A DNA stretch of 64,000 bases from Vibrio sp. HB236076 (GTDB taxonomy: Bacteria; Pseudomonadota; Gammaproteobacteria; Enterobacterales; Vibrionaceae). Each line of letters begins with the position of its first letter. Position 1 is the first letter of the stretch. Below, piece after piece: positions 5,176-59,839 of this stretch. Position numbers and translations under genes: made by a program. The stretch lies in assembly GCF_040957575.1 (NCBI RefSeq), contig NZ_CP162602.1, forward strand, positions 806,001-870,000, written 5' to 3'. Under the pieces are notes generated by a model, which saw only the letters and a list, made by a program, of their open reading frames with translations, ran no database searches and had not been told where the DNA came from.

Positions 5176-5514
5176 ACAGTGCAACACAGTTTGGGACAGT
5201 AAAACACAGTCACAAGGAAAACCGAGAAAAAAAACCAAACCTTTATTTTTTGATTTTGACCTTACTTGAGCCTTGAGCTAGATAGAGAAAATAACGGGAC
5301 ACTCACCTATTTCGACGCCTGAAATACATGCGTGTCCCGAACTCTTTGCCTGTTCTAGACTGTCCTTCACTGTCTTAAACTTTTTTACCTTGCCACTTGC
5401 AGCGCAGCGATCTTGAAACGAAGTGATCTTGCCCCTGTGTTTCACTGTCCCACACGGCAAAGTGACTGCACTTCACTGTTTTAAACTGCAGTTTACTGTG
5501 TTTTACTGTCTGTC
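5176..5514 (+). repeat. Composite GGACA repeat element, copy 1
   Basis: The left part has ACAGT repeated four times at exactly 10-bp steps (5176, 5186, 5196, 5206). The hairpin CGGGACACTCA (5295-5305) / TGCGTGTCCCG (5329-5339) follows, with arms matching at 10 of 11 positions. Next come GACTGTCC and ACTGT units, the GATCTTG direct-repeat module (about 5388-5436), and a right array with ACTG at 5465, 5475, 5485, 5495 and 5505. The left array is the inverse complement of the right one. The open frame 5278-5460 on the minus strand is only repeat sequence. Confidence 0.85.
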
Positions 5515-5857: not shown

Positions 5858-6018
5858 TAGCGGGACACTCACCAATTTCCACCGTTCAATTTCATGCGTG
5901 TCCCGCACTCTTTTCCGTTCTAGACTGTCTTTAACTTTTTACCTTGCCACTTGCAACGAAGTGATCTTGCCCCTGTCTTTTACTTTGTTTGACTGTACTA
6001 GACTGTCCTTAACTGTCA
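5858..6018 (+). repeat. Composite GGACA repeat element, copy 2
   Basis: The hairpin arms GCGGGACACTCA (5860-5871) and TGCGTGTCCCGC (5895-5906) are followed by TAGACTGTC, a shortened GATCTTG module (one unit, lacking the GCAGCGCAGC part) and ACTGT units. It has the same orientation as copy 1 and lies between the convergent ends of the ABM gene and the exported nicotinamidase gene. Confidence 0.85.
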
Positions 6019-7462: not shown

Positions 7463-7652
7463 AGGACACCCACCTATTGCCACCGCTCAAATTCATGCGT
7501 GTCCCGTACTCTTTGCCTTTCCTAGACTGTCCTTCACTTTTTACCTTGCCACTTGCAGCGCAGCGATCTTGAAATGAAGTGATCTTGCCCCTGTCTTTTA
7601 CTGTGTTTGACTGTCTAAAACTGTGTCACACTGTTCTAGACTGCCCTTCTCG
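7463..7652 (+). repeat. Composite GGACA repeat element, copy 3
   Basis: The hairpin arms are AGGACACCCA (from 7463) and TGCGTGTCCCG (ending 7506). CTAGACTGTCC, the GATCTTG module (CAGCGATCTTGAAATGAAGT) and ACTGT units at 10-bp steps follow to about 7652. It lies between the GNAT gene start and the promoter of the copper operon. Confidence 0.85.
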
Positions 7653-15120: not shown

Positions 15121-15418
15121 AACGGGACACTCACCAATTTCCACCGATCAATTTCATGCGTGTCCCGCACTCTGTGCCTTTCCTAGACTGTCCTACACTG
15201 TCTTATACTGTGTTTCACTGCCTTCAATTTTTTACCTTGCCACTTGAAGCGCAGCGATCTTGAAACGAAGTGATCTTGCCTCTGTCTTTTACTGTGTTTG
15301 ACTGTCTTACACTGTGTATAACTGTCCTTCACTTTTTACCTTGCCACTTGCAGCGCAGCGATCTTGCAGCGAAGTGATCTTGCCCCTGTCTATTACTGTT
15401 TCACACTGTTCTAGACTG
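15121..15418 (+). repeat. Composite GGACA repeat element, copy 4 (two GATCTTG modules)
   Basis: The hairpin CGGGACACTCA...TGCGTGTCCCG lies at 15123-15167. It is followed by ACTGT units at 10-bp steps, a first GATCTTG module (about 15234-15282), another ACTGT array, and a second module (about 15349-15386, with CAGCGATCTTGCAGCGAAGT). This is the longest copy, an internal duplication of the distal part. Its end supplies the last codons and stop of the ADP-ribosylglycohydrolase gene. Confidence 0.85.
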
Positions 15419-16392: not shown

Positions 16393-16555
16393 CAGGACAC
16401 TCACCTATTTCCATCGCTCAATTTCATGCGTGTCCCGCTGTGTTTACCTGTCTTATACTGTGTCACACTGTTCTAGACTGTCCTTCACTGTCTGTTCCTT
16501 GCCACTTGCAGCGCAGCGATCTTGAAACGAAGTGATCTTGCCCCTGCTTTGTACA
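16393..16555 (+). repeat. Composite GGACA repeat element, copy 5
   Basis: The arms are CAGGACACTCA (from 16393) and TGCGTGTCCCG (ending 16437), followed by ACTGT decamers and the GATCTTG module. It is tandem with copy 6 at a 170-bp period and almost identical over the B and C modules, so it is probably a recent duplication. Confidence 0.85.
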
Positions 16556-16561
16556 AAAATA

Positions 16562-16792
16562 GCGGGACACTCACCAATTTCCACCGCTCGATTTCATGCG
16601 TGTCCCGCTGTGTTTACCTGTCTTACACTGTGTCACACTGTTCTAGACTGTCCTTCACTGTCTGTTCCTTGCCACTTGCAGCGCAGCGATCTTGAAACGA
16701 AGTGATCTTGCCCCTGTCTTTTACTGTGTTTGACTGTCTTGCACTGTGTCACACTGTCCTAGACTGTCCTAGACTCTCCTTCACTGTTCTTT
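16562..16792 (+). repeat. Composite GGACA repeat element, copy 6, with seven-unit ACTGT decamer array
   Basis: The hairpin GCGGGACACTCA / GTGTCCCGC spans 16562-16608. ACTGT decamers and the GATCTTG module follow, then an uninterrupted array of seven decamers at 16723-16792 (six start ACTGT, one ACTCT). A decayed GCGAAGCGACCTTGG module lies just beyond, at about 16795-16809. Confidence 0.87.
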
Positions 16793-33838: not shown

Positions 33839-33935
33839 CAGGACAGGCTTCATCGGGACACGCACCAAAATCGCCAACAGGACACGCATTAAAAACGCAA
33901 TCGGGGACACGCACCAAAATCGCAAACAAGGACAC
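33839..33935 (+). repeat. GGACACGCA repeat cluster upstream of the methyltransferase gene
   Basis: Five head motifs lie in about 95 bp: GGACAGGCT, GGACACGCA three times, and GGACACACC. Two share the longer unit GGACACGCACCAAAATCGC. The last copy provides the AAGGA that precedes the methyltransferase ATG at 33942. The motifs are the same head as in the composite elements. Confidence 0.75.
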
Positions 33936-33941
33936 ACCACT

Positions 33942-52919: not shown

Positions 52920-53648
52920 CTACTTCATAACAAAAAGGCTTTCGTAAATCGCCACACTGCCCGATACCGAGCACAACAACAAGGCTGAATACCTCACGGT
53001 TTGCTTGGGTAAGTGTTCTGTGGTTTTAATCGCCAAAAAGAACCCCGCCATCGTCGCCGGAATCAACGGGACACTCATGTAAATATGTGACCATGTCACA
53101 TGTCCTAATACAACCAAAACCGCAATCGATATTAAAGAGCTGGCAATAAAAAAGGCCGACAAATTGGCGCGCAACGAATGCGCTTCTTGATGTTGAAGTA
53201 ATAACGCCATCGGTGGGCCACCAATCGCACTACTGGTCCCAAATAAACCAGAAAAGAACCCCGCAACCGCCATACGCCTTGGTGTGGGTTCATAGCGAAT
53301 CGGCATTAAACTCACCAACACCGCCACTAACACCAGAACGCCAACCCACATCGACAGCACAGAACTAGAAACCCAGACTAATAAACCCGCGCCCAACAAC
53401 GACCCAGGTACTCTGCCAAGCAGCGCCATTTTCAACTGCCCAATTTTAATACTGCGACGATGACGGACCGCCCCCAACAATGCGACCGTGAACGCACTGA
53501 TAATGATCGGTAAAGGGACCCACTGCGGGTCGAGTATGATCAAGACCGGCGCGGCAATAATTGCCAACCCAAAGCCAATCGCCGTTTGTACATAAGCACC
53601 AATAAAAATCACCAACATCGGCAACCACAATTCCTCTATACTCATCAT
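52920..53648 (-). CDS. TauE/SafE-family transporter
   Basis: This 242-residue protein has about seven or eight hydrophobic segments with AYVQTAIGFGLAIIAAPVLI and SGLFGTSSAIGGPPMALLLQ, the TauE repeat motif in each half. Family members export sulfite or other organosulfonate-derived anions. The stretch for residues about 180-196 is encoded by DNA that recurs almost unchanged as a 48-bp intergenic repeat at 53882-53929 and contains GGGACACTCA, so part of this coding sequence belongs to the repeat family. Confidence 0.82.
   Translation of the reverse strand: MMSIEELWLPMLVIFIGAYVQTAIGFGLAIIAAPVLIILDPQWVPLPIIISAFTVALLGAVRHRRSIKIGQLKMALLGRVPGSLLGAGLLVWVSSSVLSMWVGVLVLVAVLVSLMPIRYEPTPRRMAVAGFFSGLFGTSSAIGGPPMALLLQHQEAHSLRANLSAFFIASSLISIAVLVVLGHVTWSHIYMSVPLIPATMAGFFLAIKTTEHLPKQTVRYSALLLCSVSGSVAIYESLFVMK
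53061..53108 (+). repeat. 48-bp repeat copy inside the tauE gene
   Basis: It contains GGGACACTCA followed by a perfect palindrome ATGTGAC-CAT-GTCACAT and ends TGTCCTAA. It matches 53882-53929 at 47 of 48 positions, in the same orientation. Confidence 0.85.
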
Positions 53649-54332
53649 TTCAGGACAGCCACCTATTTCATCAAAATCATCATTAAACCATTACCCATCG
53701 TGGTCTTCTCAACCCAACCATGTTCAGGACACCCATACATTTACGATCACTTGCAAAGGACATCTCTCGACGCGACACCTACCCGGACACACACAAAATT
53801 TCACAACACTTTTAAGACAACCACAAGCTTCAAAACTGTGCCCCCCATGAATCAACGGGATGGAATCAACGGGACACTCAGAATCAACGGGACACTCATA
53901 TAAATATGTGACCATGTCACATGTCCTAAAAAACGTTGAGGACAGTCATAAAAACAACGACAACGCCATTGTCTAGACAGGCATGAACTTTTAGCCACAC
54001 TAATCTACAACAAAGCTCCGGACACTCAACAAAGATCCGGACACTTAAGGATACATATACTCACAGCAGTTGCGGACAGTCATAAAACAGTCCAAACATA
54101 ATATCAGGGACAGACACCGAGTGAGTTATTGGCAACCACTTTCTCTCACTATCGCACTCAATTTAGGTCCATCGTTCATATCGCACAATAGTGTACTTTA
54201 ATCGGTTGATAAAGGCGTTAACTTTTACAACAATGACAATTATTTAGCATAATCGTCTATCAAAAAGTCTTCCTCTCTCGGTCGCTTATCGATACAATTG
54301 GTTTCACATTAATGTATTAAGGAAGATACCTA
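53649..54332. other. 684-bp gene-free region packed with GGACA motifs
   Basis: Eleven GGACA heads lie on the plus strand between 53653 and 54116 (starts 53653, 53727, 53758, 53785, 53872, 53890, 53940, 54020, 54039, 54074, 54108). Around 53860-53900 an 18-bp unit GAATCAACGGGACACTCA is tandemly repeated. The 48-bp tauE-like repeat follows at 53882-53929. 54117-54332 holds the upstream region of the LysE gene and no further motif. Confidence 0.7.
53882..53929 (+). repeat. 48-bp intergenic copy of the tauE-internal repeat
   Basis: Identical to 53061-53108 except for one base (G to A at position 19). The tauE reading frame is not continued around it, so it is a copied fragment and not a second gene. 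Confidence 0.85.
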
Positions 54333-57831: not shown

Positions 57832-58269
57832 GATGATATAGTTTCTAAATGAAAATTATTATGATTTAACCTCGACATTATGCCCTAGCTTCAACTCAAA
57901 GGCGAGTTGCGGCTGAGAATTTACTCAATCACCCGCAGCGACACTCCCCAATCTACAGGACAGTCAATATCTATAGGACAGTCAACAATCTCTATCAAAC
58001 GGTGAAAAAATACTGTGGGACAGTCACAAAATTAACCGTATCACACCCGGAGCAGTTTCCCCTTCTGTAAAACCACCTTAAACGGCTTCATTATTACTTA
58101 ACTGAGAACAAGTGATCATTGGGACAGTCATGATCACTAGGCTGTTAACCATTTCTTTTACCAACAAAATATTATCTAAATCTTACCAAATGCTATTGAC
58201 ATCTTTGACAGTTTTCAACAATGCGTCTAATGTTATTACTGTATATAAAAACAGACTGGACATACTGCC
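57832..58269. other. Gene-free region with GGACAGTCA motifs upstream of the transposase
   Basis: Four GGACAGTCA motifs lie at 57958-57966, 57976-57984, 58018-58026 and 58122-58130, all on the plus strand, pointing at the RAYT gene. The last is the loop of a 9-bp stem (58111-58138). A partial ACTGGACATAC motif sits just before the transposase ATG. Confidence 0.75.
58111..58138 (+). repeat. Hairpin with GGACAGTC exposed in the loop
   Basis: AGTGATCAT (58111-58119) and ATGATCACT (58130-58138) form a perfect 9-bp stem around the 10-base loop TGGGACAGTC. It is a plausible single-strand substrate for the adjacent transposase. Confidence 0.65.
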
Positions 58270-59262
58270 ATGACTCAAGCTCGTTCTTCGCTGATTTCTC
58301 TGCAAGACACACCTTATTACCACTGTATCTCTCGTTGCGTCCGAAAAGCGTATTTATGCGGCGAAGATCAGCAAAGTGGTCAGTGCTTCGATCATCGTAA
58401 AATATGGCTAATAGAGAGAATCAGGCTACTATCTCAAGTATTCTCTATCGATATTTGTGCCTACGCCATTATGTCTAATCATTATCATTTAGTGCTTCAC
58501 GTCGATGAAAAAAAAGCAAAAGGCTGGTCTAATTATCAAGTGATACAACGTTGGACCAAACTTTATCGTCCTTTGCCCTTGATAGAGCGATATTCAAACA
58601 ATGAATTGACGGAAAAACCTGAAATAGATTGTGCGGAGAAAATAATTCATCAATGGCGAGAAAGACTGATGGATATCTCATGGTTTATGAAAAACCTTAA
58701 TGAGTACATTGCTCGCCAAGCCAACAAAGAAGACCAATGTACCGGACGGTTTTGGGAAGGACGCTTTAAATCTCAAGCTCTACTTGATGAGCGGGCGCTG
58801 TTAAGTTGTATGGCTTATGTAGACTTAAACCCGGTACATTCAGGCTTAGTAAATCGACTCGAGGACAGCGAATTTACCTCAATTTATGAACGATTACACG
58901 GTTATGCTTGCAAGCAAGATTCGGGGAGAGGGCAAGTACAAAGCCTGGCTCGAACAAAACTGTTTGGGTTTTTAGGCAATCAAAGAGCAAAACAGCCGTG
59001 TAAAGGGTTAGCATTTTCATTACTTGACTATTTTGAAATGGTTGACGTTTTGGGTCACGCCATTCGACCAGATAAATGTGGCTCATTACTTGTTAGCCCT
59101 TGTACTTTACTCCAAGAACTTCAACTCGACAGTGACGAATGGTTAACTATATCAGCGCAATTTGGCCGTCATTTCACCTGTGCAGTAGGTGGAATCAATG
59201 AGCTTAGATACTTTGCACAACACACTCGGCGAGCCTGGGTCAGGCAAGTACGCATTAGATAA
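58270..59262 (+). CDS. REP-associated tyrosine transposase (RAYT, Y1_Tnp family)
   Basis: This 330-residue protein has a Y1 transposase core (about 10-200): YYHCISRCVRKAYLCGED, the metal-binding HUH motif at His71/His73 in AYAIMSNHYHLVLHV, the likely catalytic Tyr146 in NLNEYIARQANK, and GRFWEGRFKSQALLDERALL followed by AYVDLNPV. E. coli TnpA-REP is about 165 residues, so this belongs to a longer subgroup with a C-terminal extension of unknown role. RAYTs cleave single-stranded REP hairpins at a conserved head. GGACAGTCA motifs lie on the plus strand upstream and mostly inverted downstream, which makes this family its probable substrate. It is a single-copy gene here, with no IS ends. Confidence 0.9.
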   Translation: MTQARSSLISLQDTPYYHCISRCVRKAYLCGEDQQSGQCFDHRKIWLIERIRLLSQVFSIDICAYAIMSNHYHLVLHVDEKKAKGWSNYQVIQRWTKLYRPLPLIERYSNNELTEKPEIDCAEKIIHQWRERLMDISWFMKNLNEYIARQANKEDQCTGRFWEGRFKSQALLDERALLSCMAYVDLNPVHSGLVNRLEDSEFTSIYERLHGYACKQDSGRGQVQSLARTKLFGFLGNQRAKQPCKGLAFSLLDYFEMVDVLGHAIRPDKCGSLLVSPCTLLQELQLDSDEWLTISAQFGRHFTCAVGGINELRYFAQHTRRAWVRQVRIR

Positions 59263-59839
59263 CAATAACTTAATACCGATGAATTAGCCTGGGCAGAGCG
59301 CTACCCCTGTTTATTGTCTCACTTACTGATTTATTGTACCAACTCACATCAGCGACCTAAACGTTGTCTCACATACCCAAGTCATTCCCCCAATCAAAGT
59401 GAGCAGGCGATCGTATGATCGTTTTATGTCAAAAACTCAATTTATAAGGACAATTTATAAGGACAGTCATCTTCCACTGTCACACATCATGGTAAATAGA
59501 AAATAAAATTATTAATTAACATACTTATTTAAAATGATTTTTTAAAAGTTTTTAATGTTGAGAATAAAATGTTTTCAGGGTATTAATTGAGTGTCCATTT
59601 TTCCGTTGCTTGAGCTTGTGAGCTGTCTCAATATGCTTTGAAGAGATACTCACCTACTTTTTGACTGTACTATTGAACTTGGACAGTGCTATTGAACTGT
59701 TCTGCTGAGTTTGATGTGATTAAACTTTCTGTGTGTCCACAAAAAAGAGTGATTGTGGATGTTAGCTGCTCACAAAAACATGAGTGTCCCCTTGATGAAT
59801 TTATGAGTGTCCACCTGATTTTTCTATTGTCTCGATCAA
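59263..59839. other. Gene-free region downstream of the transposase with inverted motifs
   Basis: A tandem AATTTATAAGGACA (14 bp, twice, about 59439-59466) ends in GGACAGTCA at 59461-59469 (plus). Further on, TGAGTGTCC (the complement of GGACACTCA) occurs at 59588-59596, 59781-59789 and 59804-59812, and TGTGTCC near 59733. No gene is seen; a short minus frame is only repeat sequence. Confidence 0.7.

Follow-up and report, generated by a model that had tools for sequence, protein, structure and literature searches.

The stretch of DNA analysed here, referred to as the window, comprises 64,000 nucleotides of contig NZ_CP162602.1 from Vibrio sp. HB236076 (positions 806,001 to 870,000 of the forward strand). 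Toward its right-hand end it contains a gene for a RAYT-type HUH (Y1) transposase, surrounded by short GGACA-headed motifs, termed here "heads" (Table 1). The initial annotation, made from the sequence alone, had placed four plus-strand motifs 5' of the RAYT gene, one more at 59461, and at least three inverted motifs downstream, and this arrangement was confirmed, with three inverted copies located. In the window as a whole, the pattern GGACASKCA has 33 matches, as compared to 1.82 expected and a maximum of six in 100 shuffles. We consider it likely, though well short of certain, that this locus is an autonomous, self-spreading RAYT unit bounded by its own inward GGACA[SN]C[AG] recognition sites.

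The window protein possesses the catalytic motifs H71-Y72-H73 and Y183-V-D-L-N-P, i.e. HUH and a single catalytic Tyr within Y---NP, and the residues H71, H73, Y183, N187 and P188 are unchanged across 58 aligned sequences. Both curated family scores are under the cut-off (22.1 bits vs 23 for Pfam Y1_Tnp, PF01797, and 51.2 bits vs 80 for NCBIfam REP_Tyr_transpos, NF047646), thus the RAYT assignment rests on the motif, the fold, and the homologs, some of which are named RayT. The structure model exhibits the TnpA_REP fold, with a strand (residues 16-21) followed by a helix (43-57), and a further strand (72-78) followed by extra helices before the helix 136-154. According to the model, and with the naming of elements being our own, segments appear to be inserted between beta1 and alphaA and between beta3 and alphaC, as in TnpA-Y1 subclass 2.3; the HuH-Tyr spacing of 110 (183-73) and the length of 330 aa also agree with the values of that subclass (~110 and ~325). 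A PDB sequence search with the window protein gave no match up to E 0.1, and no homologs were found in the phage records searched.

Table 1. Coordinates of the RAYT gene, heads, tandem repeats and palindromic doublets in the window
Feature	Position	Strand	Basis
RAYT-type HUH (Y1) transposase gene, 330 aa	58270..59262	+	ORF, profile scores, alignment, fold
Upstream head GGACAGTCA (1)	57958..57966	+	pattern match
Upstream head GGACAGTCA (2)	57976..57984	+	pattern match
Upstream head GGACAGTCA (3)	58018..58026	+	pattern match
Upstream head GGACAGTCA (4), 58122-58130, inside perfect 9-bp inverted repeat AGTGATCAT/ATGATCACT	58111..58138	+	sequence
Two head starts in tandem, unit CAATTTATAA followed by GGACA, period 13, left edge 10 nt 5' of GGACA	59438..59465	+	
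Downstream head GGACAGTCA, not converging	59461..59469	+	pattern match
Converging downstream head GGACACTCA (TGAGTGTCC on +)	59588..59596	-	pattern match
Converging downstream head GGACACTCA (TGAGTGTCC on +)	59781..59789	-	pattern match
Outermost converging downstream head GGACACTCA (TGAGTGTCC on +)	59804..59812	-	pattern match
GAATCAACG followed by GGACACTCA (9 nt + head), duplicated exactly in tandem	53863..53898	+	
GGACACTCATATAAATATGTGACCATGTCACATGTCC, GGACA-to-TGTCC unit enclosing inner palindrome; near-copy at 53069-53105	53890..53926	no strand	sequence
Palindromic head doublet GGACACTCA...TGCGTGTCC	5297..5337	no strand	pair search
Palindromic head doublet	5863..5903	no strand	pair search
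Palindromic head doublet GGACACCCA...TGCGTGTCC	7464..7504	no strand	pair search
Palindromic head doublet	15125..15165	no strand	pair search
Palindromic head doublet	16395..16435	no strand	pair search
Palindromic head doublet, 24 nt 3' of the composite's CTTGAAACGAAGTGATCTTG box	16565..16605	no strand	pair search

Converging GGACA heads flank most of the related loci examined (147/160). These 160 distinct loci, i.e. fetched loci with a tblastn match after removal of duplicate contexts, come from Vibrio genomes, Marinomonas, Marinicella, and an Alcanivoracaceae metagenome-assembled genome, and in a motif-free scan of 5-mers GGACA was the word whose converging occurrences most exceeded its diverging ones (544 in 147 loci vs 90 in 61 loci). 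The top converging words listed are GGACA-based and include neither GTAG nor GTGG, i.e. no GT[AG]G foot was found among them. The aligned heads have a consensus of approximately TTAnnA-GGACA-NN-C[AG]-C[CT]TTAA, and the main head class is CA in 63 loci, GG in 28, CC in 16, and NGCCACC in 15, while eight have none. In 12 loci from a plasmid collection (12 of 13 records, V. tritonius being left out; six genera), a loose head pattern revealed head-like words converging on both sides in eight, on one side in one and none in three, and in four of the 12 it also gave diverging matches or nothing to compare; the Pseudoalteromonas members often carry AGACACCCA. One family member (L226) is located on the conjugative-typed plasmid pNi1-3 of Shewanella decolorationis, a possible route between species.

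Ten matches to the window protein in its own genome (3.88 Mb, two contigs) correspond to nine diverged RAYT genes, three of which carry internal stops, and a 38-residue match within the most broken one. Comparison of heads at the eight loci fetched revealed GGACAGTCA/GGACACTCA beside the window copy, mainly GGACACCCA beside paralog L002, and GGACAGGCA on both sides of L007. Instead of one enzyme with one head sequence for the whole family, as originally envisaged, there are therefore nine paralogs and several head classes (GGACA followed by GT/CT, CC, GG, CA etc.) that differ between them. The window gene has cognate repeats both beside it and dispersed in its genome, as is characteristic of RAYT/TnpA_REP: GGACASTCA occurs 96 times, as compared to 32 for the pattern read backwards, and palindromic pairs GGACANNCA-N8..38-TGNNTGTCC occur 27 times, six of them in the window, vs 0 for the reversed pattern. 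The latter counts bear out the proposal that the head opens and closes palindromic elements. Several pairs lie near a paralog of the same class, e.g. GGACACACA pairs at 1297796, 1298591 and 1303292 of contig C1, around the gene at 1298839.

The association between the gene and the repeats extends across 118 genomes of the genus Vibrio, in which gene presence was defined as a match to the window protein at E 1e-3 (44 genomes, four of them weak, with the best E above 1e-20). The mean count of GGACACACAC is 17.7 in the 44 genomes with the gene vs 2.1 in the 74 without (Mann-Whitney 3e-11), and its reversed control exhibits no difference (3.5 and 3.0, respectively). At least 12 copies and twice the control are reached in 21/44 genomes with the gene vs 1/74 without, and the top 20 counts all come from gene-positive genomes. 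Palindromic doublets of any class number 110 in the gene-positive genomes (26 with at least one) vs 8 in the negative ones (7 with at least one), with 9 and 23, respectively, for the reversed control (p 8e-10, or 2e-9 leaving out the own genome). It had been proposed that the RAYT and the dispersed GGACA-headed family go together, as opposed to the repeats being equally common without the RAYT; for the class tested and for the doublets, the counts favor the former. Some other genomes of the set carry at least 18 RAYT copies. For six gene-negative genomes, the idea that their repeats stem from a RAYT remnant was considered and discarded: a broken remnant of 47 aa is present in G001 (E 5e-4), the match in G024 is doubtful (E 0.025), and the search found none in G004, G115, G033 and G056. 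In G045, GGACASTCA is strand-skewed (40 forward vs 14 reverse).

The gene has spread together with its heads. In the genome designated G102, nine copies of ~1.29 kb occur at separate places; with the ninth taken as the reference, the other eight have 92.9-96.6% identity to it. Their ends were compared for nine left and eight right cases (the right head of L044 is altered): on the left, homology begins 8 nt before the head (A at -8 in 8/9, the commonest base at -9 in 5/9), and on the right it stops ~1-2 nt past the inverted head (T at -1 in 8/8, C at -2 in 6/8). Among 149 overlapping and non-independent pairs from 84 loci, the start of homology falls within -12..+1 of a head in 110, and its end within -1..+10 in 67. 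On Pseudoalteromonas megaplasmids, two strains have the gene between an isocitrate dehydrogenase gene and those for acetolactate synthase, and a third strain lacks it and is shorter there. A 9-nt target-site duplication was rejected, as no repeat of the 9 nt preceding the left head in the G102 copies follows the right head (by eye). In one G102 locus (L045, 3208-4082 in gene orientation), a unit is followed, a dozen or so bases further on, by another copy that is truncated at its 5' end.

The flanks are also rich in tandem copies. Exact direct repeats (14 nt or longer, within 160 bp) are found in the flanks of 86 out of the 154 loci (of 160) with long enough flanks, as compared to 5/150 far-flank stretches, a control richer in coding sequence, and 0/154 Markov shuffles; with GACA or CCACCC between the two copies as a loose criterion, 66 of the 86 span a head core. 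With only GGACA, AGACACC and GCCACCC as anchors, and with several locus-sides sharing one genome, the head-containing repeats start 8-10 nt 5' of GGACA in 30/58 locus-sides (binomial p 2e-8 vs a uniform edge over 0-15), while their right ends range from +5 to +141. The same edge is found in pure tandems (17/32 at -8..-10) and in a subset chosen by the right side only (18/35), with p 1e-5. Sharing of the outer 8 nt is 0.61-0.74 between adjacent heads, 0.26-0.39 between loci, and 0.29-0.55 between the two ends of one locus. Since these nucleotides are alike in adjacent heads but not between loci, and less so between ends, they look copied rather than like a conserved motif.

As a tentative explanation, to which we assign somewhat less than an even chance, this RAYT lineage spreads as a unit while writing tandem copies of its own site, by a nick 8-9 nt before the head, 3'-OH extension, and religation. 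HUH enzymes leave Tyr-5'P and a 3'-OH able to prime replication or to rejoin, both of which might spread REPs (PMC8266576). Judging from the sequences, and as part of the self-spreading unit considered likely above, the enzyme probably recognises ~24 nt, roughly TTAnnA-GGACA-NN-CA-CYTTAA, as a single strand, and would nick it ~8-9 nt 5' of GGACA to give Tyr-5'P and a free 3'-OH. Between two inverted heads, the enclosed stretch could move, i.e. as an autonomous unit if it contains the gene, or as a palindromic doublet of ~27-56 nt if it does not. At a single head, some new sequence would be added to the 3'-OH before it is joined back to the 5' end. The product would be a tandem duplication whose 5' edge has a preferred position while its 3' edge is ragged, and arrays of heads would grow in place. 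A nick at this position followed by extension and religation would produce the edges observed, preferred on the left and ragged on the right, and the left edge at -8 in G102 points to the same predicted nick place. Read along a single strand, the left heads are complementary to the right ones, and the unit may be drawn as a large REP-like hairpin with an 8-9-nt 5' foot, the short doublets being the same hairpin with a small loop.

A number of observations weigh against a self-spreading unit bounded by its own sites. In the own genome, paralog L008 has GGACACACA heads on a single side, in both orientations, and the broken paralog L006 has none of the paralog head words. The G102 right ends (eight of nine compared) have no comparable outer 8-9 nt, hence the two element ends are not equivalent, and the left edge in the 149 pairs is bimodal, with the larger group at 0..-2 (49) and the other at -8..-10 (29). 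A base-exact empty site was sought in relatives of G102 without finding a clean junction, and the Pseudoalteromonas loci L174/L176 differ from L180 by an insertion-sized stretch plus flank rather than by an exact empty site. The window's own head class, GGACASTCA, ranks the own genome first of 118, but it is enriched in only a few RAYT genomes and as a group they are not above the control (ratio 0.95; others 0.75), a pattern which agrees with class-specific repeats without proving them. Two genomes are rich in repeats with no gene detected, namely G004 (12 GGACACACAC) and G115 (75 GGACASTCA, 47 + and 28 -, control 47). In a quick protein tree (LG+G4 without mixture; 150 intact proteins thinned to 100, 72 with a clear head class; 32/97 inner branches under 80, and a caution over L007 and L008, two long branches that join each other), head class tracks the tree with 24 changes vs 34.7 +/- 1.4 in shuffles (0/2000 as low), but the link loses its significance if the shuffling of labels is confined to each genome (24 or fewer changes in 132/2000). 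A strict code of one head per enzyme is too strong, given this result and the mixing of classes within loci. Finally, head hairpins are weak: 464 heads exhibit weak covariation, with one diagonal at z 4.7. The proposed adjacency of the head to a hairpin thus fails for single heads in general, and the head as a hairpin foot or loop was abandoned as a general feature despite the good case at 58111-58138.

The alternative that fares best, albeit a doubtful one, is that the shared positions -8..-1 represent the outer edge of a binding site kept by selection for each enzyme, not a cut site, and that the duplications are older, with only the site surviving. TTA at -6..-4 is indeed part of the general consensus and is common to opposite ends of one locus as well (0.48-0.55). 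However, a site kept by one enzyme should match at both ends, and at -3, -2, -7 and -8 it does not (adjacent heads share 0.61-0.62, opposite ends of a locus 0.29-0.40); the pure tandem copies also have the same edge. We regard it as unlikely that the heads are merely regulatory or binding sites (e.g. for transposase autoregulation) or an old REP population, with the gene moving by other means and the tandems generated by replication slippage or recombination. This would suit the weak hairpins and the headless loci, i.e. those without a head class among the 160 and the three from the plasmid collection, yet the homology of units mostly ends at the heads, and slippage leaves unexplained the preferred start of the duplications with their ragged right ends. 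Close direct repeats are also much more frequent beside the loci than in the far flanks, which are, however, more coding. Least probable of all is an ordinary domesticated REP/RAYT pair, in which the gene is stationary and short palindromes alone move, since the fold, the catalytic motif and the scattered palindromic doublets agree with it, but the nine diverged paralogs in the own genome, the high copy numbers in some genomes, the nine near-identical copies in one, and the absence of both GTAG and GTGG from the top converging words listed do not.

The window contains other elements with GGACA heads. A long composite contains head doublets and is private to the own genome among the 118 searched: its CAAGATCRCTKCGYTNCAAG (CAAGATC) box occurs 56 times there and 0 times in the 117 other genomes of the genus. 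The box lies 24 nt 5' of a GGACA doublet at four places (window 16565; C1 496203, 499793 and 506401), while the remaining composite boxes listed for the window are not so placed. Since the box is found in 1/118 genomes, the built-in head doublets remain as the sole link for the initial suggestion that the long composites derive from the RAYT system. Within the composite, ACAGT/ACTGT arrays with ~10 bp spacing (by eye; one helical turn) are found at 15190-15330, 16435-16520 and 16700-16790 of the window; GACTGTCC recurs in them as described before, a recurrence that does not by itself make the arrays members of the RAYT system. A row of five GGACA-headed units (GGACACGCACCAAAATCGC and variants) is located at 33841-33940 directly 5' of an ATG, and no nearby RAYT gene was noticed.

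The origin and spread of REP repeats are open questions, because the RAYTs studied in detail seem to be domesticated, without mobilizing the genes that encode them. No IS-like mobility has been found for RAYT genes (PMC2817692), and REPtrons in general apparently do not transpose as a unit (PMC6006769). Here we deal with a multi-copy, recently spread RAYT lineage, in which the recognition site, the likely cut position, and the growth of arrays can be read from the sequence. If the proposed mechanism is true, it would provide a direct route, visible in the sequence, by which mosaic clusters and REP-like arrays could grow, after which paired heads would move as palindromic doublets.

One of the closest known systems is TnpA-Y1 subclass 2.3, described as proteins of ~325 aa with a HuH-Tyr distance of 110, insertions, a long C-terminus, and copy numbers above five in Chromatiales and Alteromonadales, for which recent spreading was suggested (PMC6006769). 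The family of the window protein shares with them the length, the spacing, Y---NP, the extra beta1-alphaA and beta3-alphaC segments, the long C-terminus, the multicopy state and the Alteromonadales hosts. In contrast, that paper reports no identifiable REP-like flanking structures, and the copies present in any one genome are not described there as highly conserved, whereas we find converging heads at most loci examined and, in one genome, nine copies that are ~93-97% identical to a reference copy. The absence of a solid hairpin in single heads may be the reason why flanking repeats of subclass 2.3 were missed; the present analysis supplies them, together with nine paralogs in one genome with several head variants.

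Like TIRYTs, RAYT relatives whose TIRtrons have flanking inverted repeats with a GGGGWSAS motif and some dispersed families (PMC3733652), the window gene lies inside inverted repeats, some of which are dispersed as families, dimers and clusters. The TIRYT consensus GGGG[AT][CG]A[CG] overlaps GGACA[CG] in its last six letters, although the leading GG is not general here, A being the commonest base at -1. By spacing and length the window protein belongs to another subclass, while 20/26 TIRYTs were placed in subclass 2.1 (PMC6006769); Vibrio is not mentioned in the main text on TIRYTs, and in its available parts we saw neither unit-level spread nor an edge 8-9 nt outside the head (PMC3733652). 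The GTAG REP/REPIN-RAYT systems of E. coli, Pseudomonas and others likewise combine a HUH single-Tyr enzyme, shown in their case to nick beside the head, with a conserved head in singlets and inverted doublets (PMC8266576, PMC2817692), but here the head is GGACANNCA rather than GT[AG]G, and single heads have no solid hairpin. IS200/IS605 elements share the HUH-Y1 chemistry and fold, but their hairpins are subterminal and they lack terminal inverted repeats, as opposed to the inverted-repeat ends found here (PMC2817692, PMC6006769). Inverted-repeat-flanked RAYT relatives are thus already known (PMC3733652), and the label of a "new REP-type system" given initially goes too far. No report of GGACA heads in Vibrio was seen among the literature matches listed, which does not establish their absence in print. 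As far as these papers show, what is new comprises the heads of this subclass, the variation of head classes among paralogs, the evidence for spread of the unit, and the preferred edge of the tandem copies.
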